Shown one piece after another: positions 20,287 through 39,427 of a stretch of 59,004 nt of DNA. A program made the position numbers and the translations under genes. Source of the stretch: Pseudoflavonifractor sp. An184. GTDB taxonomy: Bacteria > Bacillota > Clostridia > Oscillospirales > Oscillospiraceae. A model generated the notes under the pieces. It made no database searches. It saw only the letters and a list, made by a program, of their open reading frames with translations, and was not told the origin of the DNA. The first letter of the stretch is position 1; every line of letters begins with the position of its first letter. Location: assembly GCF_002160305.1 (NCBI RefSeq), contig NZ_NFKI01000020.1:1-59004 (forward strand). Reading direction: 5' to 3'.

Positions 20287-20375
20287 TGGCGGAGACGGTG
20301 GGATTCGAACCCACGTGCGGTTGCCCGCAAACTGATTTCGAGTCAGCCCCGTTATGACCACTTCGATACGTCTCC
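20287..20375 (-). tRNA. tRNA-Ser(CGA)
   Basis: Minus-strand cloverleaf with acceptor GGAGACG/CGTCTCC, anticodon loop CTCGAAA (anticodon CGA), a long variable arm as expected for serine, a GGTTCGAATCC T-arm, and an encoded CCA end (20287-20289). The last 40 bases at the 5' side are repeated at 20548-20581. Confidence 0.95.
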
Positions 20376-29379: not shown

Positions 29380-29422
29380 CCAAAAAGAAAGACATCTGCA
29401 AAGCAGATGTCTTTCTTTTTGG
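29380..29422 (-). terminator. Perfect palindrome at the tRNA-Leu 3' end
   Basis: Twenty bases on each arm (CCAAAAAGAAAGACATCTGC and its exact complement) around a three-base loop. On the minus strand it begins at the CCA end of tRNA-Leu and ends in a T-rich arm, so it can terminate the tRNA transcript. Confidence 0.8.
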
Positions 29423-29506
29423 TGCGGCTGACGGGAGTCGAACCCGTACGCCCGTCCGGACACAAGCACCTCAAGCTTGCCAGTCTACCAATTCCAGCAC
29501 AGCCGC
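29420..29506 (-). tRNA. tRNA-Leu(GAG)
   Basis: Minus-strand cloverleaf: acceptor GCGGCTG/CAGCCGC, anticodon stem CAAGC/GCTTG with loop TTGAGGT (anticodon GAG), a long variable arm, T-arm GGTTCGACTCC and an encoded CCA end (29420-29422). Confidence 0.95.
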
Positions 29507-37281: not shown

Positions 37282-37330
37282 TCAACCGCTGGTTGAGCGG
37301 CCGGCGCCCGCGGACAGACGGAGCTCAACC
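37282..37330 (+). promoter_or_regulatory. Dyad ahead of the XRE regulator
   Basis: TCAACC-gct-GGTTGA (37282-37296) is a perfect short dyad, and the half-site TCAACC recurs at 37325-37330 within GAGCTCAACC. This is a plausible binding site for the HTH protein encoded just downstream; inferred from position and symmetry only. Confidence 0.4.
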
Positions 37331-37391
37331 GATGGTATGTGGTGATTCGGTTCTGGAAATCGTATGCTCAGGTCAGAAAGGAGGGGCGCCC

Positions 37392-38000
37392 ATGGATCAG
37401 GAAAAAATCGGCGCGTTCATCGCCGCATGCCGGAAAGAGGCCGGCTACACCCAGGCCGCCCTGGGGGAGAAGCTGGGGATCACAGACCGGGCGGTCTCCA
37501 AATGGGAGACTGGAAAAAATATGCCGGACCCATCCCTGATGCTGGAGCTGTGCGGGCTTCTCCATATCAATGTCAATGAGCTCCTGACCGGGGCGCGGAT
37601 GGACATGGAGCGGTATCAGGAACAAGCGGAAAAGCACCTGCTGGAGCTGCAGCGCCAGGAGGCGGAGCAGAACAAAAAGCTCCTCTCTCTGGAGACGGTG
37701 ATCGCCGCCTCGGCCACGGTCAACTATCTGGTTATGATATTTGCCGCTGTCTTCGCGGTGGAGATGCTGGCATGGCGGCTGGCGCTGGTGCTCACCGGGC
37801 TGGCGATCCTGGTAGCGGCCATCGCCTATGCCCTGCGCATCGAGCACGACGCGGGCTACTATGAGTGTCCCCACTGCGGCGCCCGGTATATCCCCACCAT
37901 GCGGGCGGTGGTGCTGGCCCCGCACATCGGACGGAGCCGGAGCATGAAATGTCCCCGCTGCGGACAGCGGGGATATCACAAAAAGGTATTGACCAAATGA
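37392..38000 (+). CDS. XRE-family regulator with membrane helices and a C-terminal zinc ribbon
   Basis: A 202-residue protein: Cro/CI-type HTH (about 5-60; TQAALGEKLGITDRAVSKWETGKNMPD), a coiled segment (75-100), two adjacent hydrophobic helices (about 108-152), and a zinc ribbon with YECPHCGARY and MKCPRCGQRGY. This layout (DNA-binding domain, helices, then ribbon) suggests a membrane-tethered regulator. AAAGGAGGGG precedes the ATG. It is convergent with the candidate RNA at 38078-38620 and shares its terminator hairpin. Confidence 0.88.
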   Translation: MDQEKIGAFIAACRKEAGYTQAALGEKLGITDRAVSKWETGKNMPDPSLMLELCGLLHINVNELLTGARMDMERYQEQAEKHLLELQRQEAEQNKKLLSLETVIAASATVNYLVMIFAAVFAVEMLAWRLALVLTGLAILVAAIAYALRIEHDAGYYECPHCGARYIPTMRAVVLAPHIGRSRSMKCPRCGQRGYHKKVLTK

Positions 38001-38077
38001 TGCTTTCCCGGGGCTGCCGCAAAGGGGCGGCCCCGGGTTTTTCCGGAGCCGGCGCACTTCCGCCGCATCCCAAGAGG

Positions 38078-38620
38078 CAAAAGAAATAACCCCTGATCGT
38101 CTTCCGTGGTTCTGACAATCAGGGGTTATTTCTGGTGCTTCTTGTTATCTAACATCATATGGTTACCTCTCTTTCTGCAGATTCTCCAATTCCACACGTT
38201 CCGCCTGCAAGTTTCCATCCTGCGTTCAACTCGTTCTTCTGCGCTCCTCTGAGCTGCACCCCTCACACATGAGGTCCTGTTCTGTTGCGCGATTTCGTCC
38301 TTCTTGCGGCATTCTGTGGAGTTTTGGAGTGGGGTCCAGATGTTCTTCTCCGGCCGGCGCGCGTTGCTTGGAACTGAATGGGACAGTTACTTCTTGGTGC
38401 CTGGGAACCTTGAATTTCCTTTGGTCTGCTTCCGTGTTTTCTGCGTTCCAGGGGTCTTTCAGGATTCTTGGGTTACACTTAGGAAATCACTGCTTGGGTT
38501 CCGAAAATTTTCTTTCCTTTCCGCGCCTTTCTCAATCGAACTTCTTTATTTCAATCTCAGCCGCCGAATCCGGTGACATCTGGGGTCCAGGTTTCTTACC
38601 ACATTGGTATCACCCTTTCT
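38078..38620 (-). ncRNA. Candidate structured noncoding RNA of about 540 nt
   Basis: A gene-free stretch with a TTGACA/TATATT promoter at one end and a 14-bp terminator stem (AAATAACCCCTGAT / ATCAGGGGTTATTT) plus T-run at the other. The minus-strand transcript is A/G-rich and has stops in all frames. Distant segments pair in nested order: 38576-38583 with 38336-38343 (8 bp), 38570-38573 with 38350-38353 (4 bp), and 38562-38566 with 38355-38359 (5 bp). Local hairpins lie inside or beside this: CCTGGAAC/GTTC(c)CAGG (38445-38452 with 38400-38408), AACTG/CAGTT (38372-38388) and CCTCA/TGAGG (38261-38274). No match to RNase P, tmRNA, 6S or SRP motifs was recognised. Confidence 0.55.
38126..38158 (-). 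CDS. Possible ten-residue peptide inside the candidate RNA
   Basis: MMLDNKKHQK, ending in TAA within the terminator stem. GAGAGG is seven bases before the ATG. Too short to judge by composition; it may be a leader-type peptide or chance. Confidence 0.25.
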   Translation of the reverse strand: MMLDNKKHQK

Positions 38621-38626
38621 GGCTAT

Positions 38627-38655
38627 AATATAGCACTCGACCCCGGATTTGTCAA
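38627..38655 (-). promoter_or_regulatory. Strong promoter of the candidate RNA
   Basis: On the minus strand, a perfect TTGACA (38650-38655), 17 bp, TATATT (38627-38632). No coding frame of 60 residues or more follows on this strand. Confidence 0.8.
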
Positions 38656-38701
38656 CTGGTTTTAGAGGAAATTACAAATCTTTTTGCAGGATTTTTGAAA
38701 A

Positions 38702-39427
38702 TCACTTGCAGGCGTCTCCCTGGCCCGCTCCGCCGGAACAGCCTGGGCAGGCGGGTGGAACCGCCTGTCTCTTCCTCCGGCGGCCCGCCAGCAGGTCCGC
38801 CGCGATCAGAACCGCACACCAGAATACCAGCAGGACCAGAATCAGAATGGCACAGTTGCGGAAAAAGTCCTCCGGAAGCAGGAGGATAATGGGGTCGGTG
38901 CGCCAATCGAAGATCCAGTTGGTCTTACCCGGGAAGAAAATGGAGTGGAAGATCACGAAGGCCCGGTCAAAATCCGTGGCGGCCAGGGCGCCCACCGCCA
39001 GAAAGACGGCGGCCAATCCCGCCGCGGCCCAGAATCCCGGCCCGCGGCCCAGCAGGCGGGCGGGAGTGAGCCGGCGCTTCCGGGCAAAGAGAAACAGGAG
39101 CACAAGGGCCGCCGCCGACAGAACCAGCAGCACCAGGTCCAGCTGGAACAGCACACGCACGTCGGCAAAGTGGTCCCGGCCCGACTCCGACCAGGGGAGC
39201 ACCCCCACGGAGAAGTCCTGCCGCAGGCCCAGGCAGAAGTCCAGCATCTCATCAAAGGCCTGCTTGATCTGGTCCACCGTCAGTCCGGTGTACTCGGGCA
39301 TGGACATGGCCTCAATGTGGGCGTAGTAGAAGGGCCGGCACAGGATGGGCACGGCGATGGACCCGGACAGCACCAGCACGGCGGTGGCCAGGGCGGTCAG
39401 CAGAGAGAGCGGTTTGCTGGATTTCAA
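38702..39427 (-). CDS. TIGR01906/DUF1461 family integral membrane protein
   Basis: A 241-residue protein with four to five helices. The first loop has YTGLTVDQIKQAFDEMLDFC and VLPWSESGRDHFADVR, and the last FPGKTNWIFDWRTDPII; these are the conserved segments of TIGR01906, an actinobacterial and clostridial family of unknown function. It begins 11 bases after the neighbouring membrane protein gene, so the two form an operon. The C-terminal tail is Cys- and Gly-rich (CPGCSGGAGQGDACK). Confidence 0.8.
   Translation of the reverse strand: MKSSKPLSLLTALATAVLVLSGSIAVPILCRPFYYAHIEAMSMPEYTGLTVDQIKQAFDEMLDFCLGLRQDFSVGVLPWSESGRDHFADVRVLFQLDLVLLVLSAAALVLLFLFARKRRLTPARLLGRGPGFWAAAGLAAVFLAVGALAATDFDRAFVIFHSIFFPGKTNWIFDWRTDPIILLLPEDFFRNCAILILVLLVFWCAVLIAADLLAGRRRKRQAVPPACPGCSGGAGQGDACK

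Follow-up and report, generated by a model that had tools for sequence, protein, structure and literature searches.

What kind of RNA is made from a segment with a clear start and a clear end and no gene of ordinary size in between? This question is raised by the minus strand of a contig from Pseudoflavonifractor sp. An184 (GCF_002160305.1, NZ_NFKI01000020.1, positions 1 to 59,004; these 59,004 nucleotides are referred to here as the window). At positions 38655–38079, a sigma-70-type promoter (38627–38655, minus strand; TTGACA-17-TATATT with TG, 11 of 12 consensus matches) is followed by an intrinsic terminator (38079–38132, minus strand; 5’ arm starting AGAAATAACCCC), recognized by sequence, by folding and by a covariance model, with a 20-bp stem (38132–38082) and a U run. 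The consensus promoter and strong terminator reported in a preliminary description of this DNA are thus both confirmed, and delimit an inferred RNA of about 540 nt; three promoter sites of this kind occur within 4 kb, versus a mean of 0.8 in shuffled sequences. The same description called the segment gene-free, which is correct insofar as the longest minus-strand open reading frame (ORF; minimum 20 amino acids) lying wholly within it does not exceed 46 amino acids, but two tiny ORFs at its ends were overlooked. Longer mechanically called minus-strand ORFs, of 108 and 84 amino acids, overlap only the segment edges, and ORFs of 119 and 90 amino acids were called mechanically on the plus strand. 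The genome contains a single copy of the RNA, the only other match being to the terminator on the opposite strand.

Comparison with homologues shows a single conserved unit consisting of the promoter, a first Shine-Dalgarno sequence (SD1) with a minigene (ORF1), a body of variable length with covariation in its 3’ arm, a second Shine-Dalgarno sequence (SD2) with a short ORF (ORF2), and the terminator, which overlaps the ORF2 stop codon. This arrangement suggests that the RNA may recruit ribosomes because their presence, and not the protein that they make, is what matters. We tentatively favor, at a little short of an even chance, the view that this is a stand-alone structured RNA in which start-stop translation at the 5’ end acts as a ribosome roadblock against a 5’ exonuclease.

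The collection of homologues proposed in the preliminary description revealed a family present in relatives, and not the lack of conservation that it had named as counting against a structured RNA. BLAST searches with positions 38134–38660 gave matches in 72 of 149 relatives. These matches were near full-length in five genomes (the strain’s own, G046, G010, G026 and G054), and nearly all the others covered one or both of two blocks, the 5’ and 3’ ends, which are the best-conserved parts of the family; a single 30-base match located elsewhere in G104 may be due to chance. A pattern scan of genome contigs returned 87 stretches, and the titles of 80 of them name Oscillospiraceae and other or uncultured Clostridia, including Pseudoflavonifractor capillosus, Lawsonibacter, Flintibacter muris and Colidextribacter. 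Two models were built: R1, a covariance model of the 3’ end (trained on 47 of the 75 3’ modules left after dereplication and on one further row, L020, cut at wrong coordinates), and R2, a sequence-only model of the 5’ module (45 of 63 modules).

The 63 dereplicated 5’ modules have the same kind of promoter in the same place, with a weaker –35 element (TTGAAA, TTGCAA) in some distant members, followed by a purine-rich SD1 and then by GTCC-A-ATG or TACC-A-ATG, with small variations. In the window, SD1 (AGAAAGGGTGAT; 38609–38620, minus strand) starts no more than about 10 nt from the 5’ end that the promoter implies for the RNA, and is predicted to pair with the 16S rRNA tail GGCTGGATCACCTCCTTTCT with a duplex energy of –13.0; this tail was present in five of 20 genomes, all five belonging to the genus, and was absent from the strain’s own draft genome. 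SD1 precedes the start-stop minigene ATG TGG TAA (ORF1; 38596–38604, minus strand). The position of its stop codon was counted in 75 of 103 distinct copies, retained by a filter blind to that stop (5’ block that ends in ATG and has at most two mismatches; ORF2 with its stop, no longer than 12 letters; unit inside the locus; exact duplicates removed, near-identical copies remaining). An in-frame stop occurred at codon 3 (29 copies) or codon 4 (45 copies) in 74 of the 75, the remaining copy having a longer frame, whereas the other two frames reached a stop within six codons in only 14 (frame 1) and two (frame 2) copies; by distinct 24-base context, the short frame was kept in 59 of 60 cases. The commonest kinds were ATG TAC AGG TAA (21), ATG TAC AAG TAA (11), ATG TGG TAA (10) and ATG TAC TAA (6), alongside 20 further kinds, so the sense codons vary (TGG; TAC AGG; TAC AAG; TTT).

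R2 also matched upstream on the same strand, with E up to 0.001, in 28 of the 38 loci brought in by R1. Many of the R2-matched loci belong to other families and have quite different codons (ATG AGA AAG TAA, ATG AAA ATC TAA, ATG TTC CGG TAA). Among the 26 printed loci found through their 3’ ends, which form part of 37 R2 rows, 21 have an ORF1 of two to four sense codons; one of the 26, L149, was judged by eye, as the script began at an upstream GTG, and L144 is the same locus as the training rows of L028. Because the Shine-Dalgarno sequence, the ATG and the early stop are kept while the codons change, the pattern fits selection on the act of starting and stopping translation, and not selection for a peptide or for an invariant RNA motif.

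A second putative translation site is found at the 3’ end. SD2 (AGAAAGAGAGGT; 38165–38176, minus strand; duplex energy –13.9) precedes ORF2 (38126–38155, minus strand), which would encode MLDNKKHQK in nine codons before its stop and has an in-frame ATG directly before it. Codon 10 is the stop in 123 of 130 distinct copies. No stop is in reach in L062 and L114, where the copy is at a locus end, or in L184 (a weak match from the phylum sample), and one codon is lost in frame in L084. In the other three, two tandem copies at L019 and a single one at L028, the frame is shifted and the ORF is two codons longer; each of these neighbors a copy in which the frame is the usual one. The peptides themselves are diverse, with 57 among 84 distinct sequences, and the length of ORF2 is thus held more tightly than its sequence. 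As homologue collection depended on the ORF2 start (pattern) or the whole 3’ end (R1), the conservation of MLD(N/I)K is partly due to choice. The stop codon, TGA in 77 cases and TAA in 21, falls within the 5’ half of the terminator stem, and its partner base changes together with it in the few cases that could be aligned.

These features could also be those of an mRNA in which a very long 5’ leader regulates the nine-residue peptide; a CCUC in the 3’ arm would pair with the GAGG of SD2 and switch ORF2 translation. A strong SD2, a nearly fixed ORF2 length and an open frame (of 84 distinct sequences, 81 have stops in frame 1 and 72 in frame 2) are as this reading predicts, and the CCUC/GAGG hairpin, where found (48 copies), lies 114–128 nt upstream of the ORF2 start in 45. 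However, the peptide drifts, single changes in codons 6–9 comprise 12 synonymous versus 21 nonsynonymous ones, little above the expected 0.233, and the ORF1 minigene is left without a role; the pattern used failed to find the hairpin in 55 of 103 copies, and the switch itself is conjectural. We therefore regard a peptide mRNA as somewhat unlikely. An ordinary trans-acting small RNA, with ends resembling Shine-Dalgarno sequences and containing ATG codons that serve as base-pairing or protein-binding motifs and are never translated, would account for the conservation of the ends as sequence and for the tandem or dispersed copies in some genomes, but not for codons that vary after the ATG with a stop kept at codon 3 or 4, nor for an ORF2 of constant length despite 57 peptides, and seems improbable.

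The body separating the two ends varies in length, the distance between the two start codons ranging from about 130 to 595 in the 75 copies. The preliminary description had proposed nested helices of 8, 4 and 5 bp closing a domain of about 220 nt. A 220-nt domain was found, although the helices presumed to have been meant are of 9 and 6 bp. They form the 5’ domain (38336–38583, minus strand), in which helix 38568–38560/38358–38349 (9 bp) closes the 220 nt, with three of its nine pairs changing on both sides, and helix 38583–38578/38341–38336 (6 bp) flanks the domain, with no covariation shown; 92.5% and 94.4% of cells, respectively, are paired in six sequences. A small CUGG/CCAG- or CAG/CUG-type hairpin seems, by eye, to recur just after ORF1 in many homologues (about 38590–38578 in the window), and in the window clade it would compete with the 6-bp helix, making a switch possible. 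The 3’ arm (38184–38329, minus strand; six sequences) consists of helices 38329–38326/38187–38184, 38319–38313/38198–38192, 38311–38303/38211–38202 and 38290–38284/38230–38222, with apical hairpins at 38274–38261 (CCUC/GAGG) and 38258–38240.

Tested for covariation, as the preliminary description had suggested, the helices keep their pairing in homologues. The 50-pair structure of the window clade (six homologues) is 93.6% paired, versus 28–38% when slid along the alignment, and exceeds all 500 shuffles on four of five measures, including pairs changed on both sides (13, versus 8.2 with a standard deviation of 1.5 in shuffles) and covariation score (0.253, versus 0.134 with a standard deviation of 0.017), each reached by 0 of 500; on the fifth, further pair types, it was not above the shuffles, 316 of 500 of which reached its value with these six sequences. 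An arm of the same topology is found in 21 Lawsonibacter-type sequences (34 pairs, 11 of them showing compensatory types, with pairing in 96.2% of cells), this structure being derived from the alignment on which it was counted, with no shuffle control, and some of the 11 flagged pairs pairing poorly (columns 22/147 and 32/135). Covariation was counted within these two clades rather than across the family because MAFFT misaligns the core helices between clades. Without its terminator, the window RNA folds no better than shuffled sequences (z –0.29), and the z of –3.05 for the window therefore rests on the terminator; across 54 dereplicated 3’ domains, z averages –1.28, 45 of them scoring below 0 and 22 below –1.65. 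The support for a predicted structure is, thus, comparative and not energetic. Pairing of SD1/ORF1 with SD2/ORF2 is possible in the window clade, and was rejected as a general mechanism, because the summed pair probability is at least 9 in only 13 of 75 homologues. Examination for a CsrA-type sponge showed GGA to be only mildly enriched in the bodies (647, versus 527 expected from composition).

The structured RNA matches none of the known RNA families against which it was searched. The search against Rfam 15 suggested in the preliminary description gave nothing at the gathering score in the segment, with only sub-threshold matches up to E = 10, and yielded two tRNAs in the window; in 20 homologous loci it returned only tRNAs and one neighboring Gut-1 RNA. 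6S RNA (RF00013) was rejected, with no match in the window and the genome’s 6S match lying elsewhere (G000:C24:50522–50721), as was tmRNA, for which Rfam gave no match and ARAGORN none either, reporting just two tRNAs for the window. The claim of a long structured RNA of unknown class therefore stands, given the homologues with the same promoter, ends and terminator, the helices covarying within two clades and the lack of an Rfam family, with the amendment that the RNA is probably not simply noncoding, since a start codon, a Shine-Dalgarno sequence and an in-frame stop are kept at both ends. OLE, ROOL, GOLLD and raiA are large, stand-alone, structured bacterial RNAs of unclear function that are included in Rfam; the RNA described here is likewise long, stand-alone and structured, but it has no covariance match, and has two conserved end mini-ORFs and a body of variable length. 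In dual-function RNAs, such as SgrS/SgrT, RNAIII and SR1/SR1P, a regulatory body is combined with a short ORF for a longer, functional peptide. The conserved frame and length of ORF1 and ORF2 similarly point to translatable ORFs within a structured RNA, but these ORFs have only two to three and nine codons and drift in sequence. We know of no description of this combination of parts, although the individual parts have precedents. No such RNA is named in the titles and abstracts among the literature matches listed.

In the genus, R1 matched 61 of 64 genomes with E up to 1e-4, and 73 of the 149 relatives were matched overall. Occurrence in samples of the order and the class is patchy: R1 matched 47 of 295 genomes from the order with E up to 0.01, of which 44 scored 1e-6 or better, and 23 of 391 genomes from the class, of which 20 scored 1e-9 or better, the strain’s own genome being counted in both. 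In a phylum sample of 398 genomes, which also held members of the class and was searched with stricter filters, the four matches were the own genome and three with E values of 0.003–0.004, which are taken as chance. Some genomes, such as G727 and G712, have two to four copies (R1 matches, with opposite-strand terminator matches discounted), and two or three copies lie close together in L019, L028, L031, L034, L060 and L085. A mobile or phage-borne RNA is unsupported: neither a scan of viral contigs with the same single exact pattern nor a blastn search of phages and plasmids with the window RNA gave a match, although diverged copies could escape both.

The surroundings of the RNA bear on whether it could be the leader or attenuator of a downstream gene. 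A promoter, small ORFs and a terminator are indeed parts of attenuators. However, the next gene downstream in the window, a helix-turn-helix gene (37293–38000), is convergent, and among the genes of the homologous loci, which were called mechanically, the largest downstream cluster has eight entries and is convergent (a permease-like protein, named by eye), with no co-directional cluster of more than five. No downstream gene is thus conserved in the loci examined, and we consider a leader highly improbable. Upstream, on the same strand, lies a gene of the Lit family (lipoprotein intramolecular transacylase Lit, PF07314, 145 bits; 38702–39427, minus strand), and in homologous loci an upstream neighbor of 225 amino acids, which we take to resemble DUF2461, accounts for a cluster with 21 entries. 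A 12-bp GC-rich terminator-like site (38007–38037, plus strand) at the end of the helix-turn-helix gene faces the RNA terminator some 40 bases away. The tRNAs of the window are tRNA-Ser(cga) (20287–20375, minus strand) and tRNA-Leu(gag) (29420–29506, minus strand), and the Gut-1 RNA mentioned above (RF01706, 72.6 bits; L128, 1808–1882, plus strand) lies about 200 nt downstream of the homologue.

Why, then, would a structured RNA carry a start-stop minigene at its very 5’ end? In the roadblock explanation, a ribosome would initiate at ORF1, terminate at once and re-initiate, so that the 5’ end would be covered nearly all the time; this ribosome would block the 5’-to-3’ exonuclease RNase J, and the early stop would keep ribosomes from entering and unfolding the body. 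ORF2 might do a related job next to the terminator, or tether the RNA to ribosomes. The body would be a long-lived RNA that acts in trans, either in regulation or in association with ribosomes; this is the least supported step of the explanation. The strain’s genome encodes a protein matched by TIGR00649 (621 bits), which we take to be the RNase J family, and a search of the same genome with an RNase E/G model gave no match. In Bacillus subtilis, according to a review, a stalled ribosome as a 5’ roadblock or a ribosome site near the 5’ end stabilizes a long downstream RNA even if the latter is untranslated, and the reference list of the same review includes a paper on a mini-ORF ribosome site protecting an mRNA (PMC3997798). 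Similarly, PMC8708949 describes a two-codon minigene that acts in cis, possibly through mRNA protection, and ribosomes that re-initiate without leaving on minigenes behind a strong Shine-Dalgarno sequence. A start-stop site indifferent to codon identity at the inferred 5’ end, a host with a putative RNase J-type enzyme in which RNase E/G was not found, and these precedents are the grounds for proposing that ribosomes at ORF1 may cap the RNA and that the early stop may spare the body.

Several observations weigh against this proposal. A roadblock alone would not need a stop codon, and five of the 26 loci (L140, L145, L150, L155 and L156) have no clear ORF1 of two to four codons, the R2 matches of L140, L145 and L156 covering the promoter part only. 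The TIGR00649 model also matches control genomes such as that of Escherichia coli. In 13 of 75 sequences, including that of the window, strong pairing between the two ends is predicted, and the predicted unpaired probability averages 0.50 for SD1, 0.73 for AUG1, 0.51 for SD2 and 0.47 for AUG2. Finally, both Shine-Dalgarno sequences are strong but ordinary: among 409 background genes, each represented by the best of up to eight starts, 17% reach the level of SD1 in the window (28% on average for 72 homologues), and 11% reach that of SD2 (12% on average).

This last point also counts against the idea that the RNA binds and holds ribosomes. In this reading, its two sites would capture 30S or 70S particles and the minigene would retain them, making the RNA a sponge, a sensor or a scaffold for hibernation. 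An untranslated body bracketed by two strong Shine-Dalgarno sequences and a conserved, near-consensus promoter would suit such a function, as would the avoidance of AGGAGG in 72 bodies (one observed, versus 14 expected from base composition). However, many ordinary genes have sites as strong as either, this expectation uses single-base composition only, and a very high abundance would be required, making a ribosome-holding RNA unlikely.

Two-codon minigenes are also known from the lambda bar RNA, and Gram-positive 5’ stabilizers based on a ribosome site go by the name STAB-SD. The roadblock explanation has its nearest parallel in the 5’ stabilizers of cryIIIA, ermC and hbs, which have a strong ribosome site near the 5’ end of an RNA that need not be translated (PMC3997798). 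The setting also seems similar, with SD1 near the start inferred from the promoter and a host in which RNase J appears to be present and RNase E/G absent. In contrast to these stabilizers, which protect mRNAs, a structured RNA without a long ORF would be protected here, and the start-stop ORF itself is kept from one family to another; the relation between the two is inferred. ORF1 also resembles the two-codon minigenes of axe-txe and the LEE1 leader, which likewise consist of ATG, a codon of free identity and a stop behind a Shine-Dalgarno sequence, but which lie upstream of a main gene (PMC8708949), whereas there is no main gene here.

With somewhat less confidence than for the roadblock itself, it is possible that these loci define a class of ribosome-capped RNAs: non-messenger structured RNAs with a 5’ start-stop minigene and a nine-codon ORF merged with the terminator, on which initiating and terminating ribosomes would serve as structural end caps or tethers and the peptides would be by-products. 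An RNA family absent from Rfam 15 is added to the little-studied gut Clostridia. If the tiny ORFs are translated, evolution would here be preserving a frame of two to three codons solely so that translation can begin and end, and the use of ribosomes as end caps for a non-messenger RNA would become testable in bacteria without RNase E.
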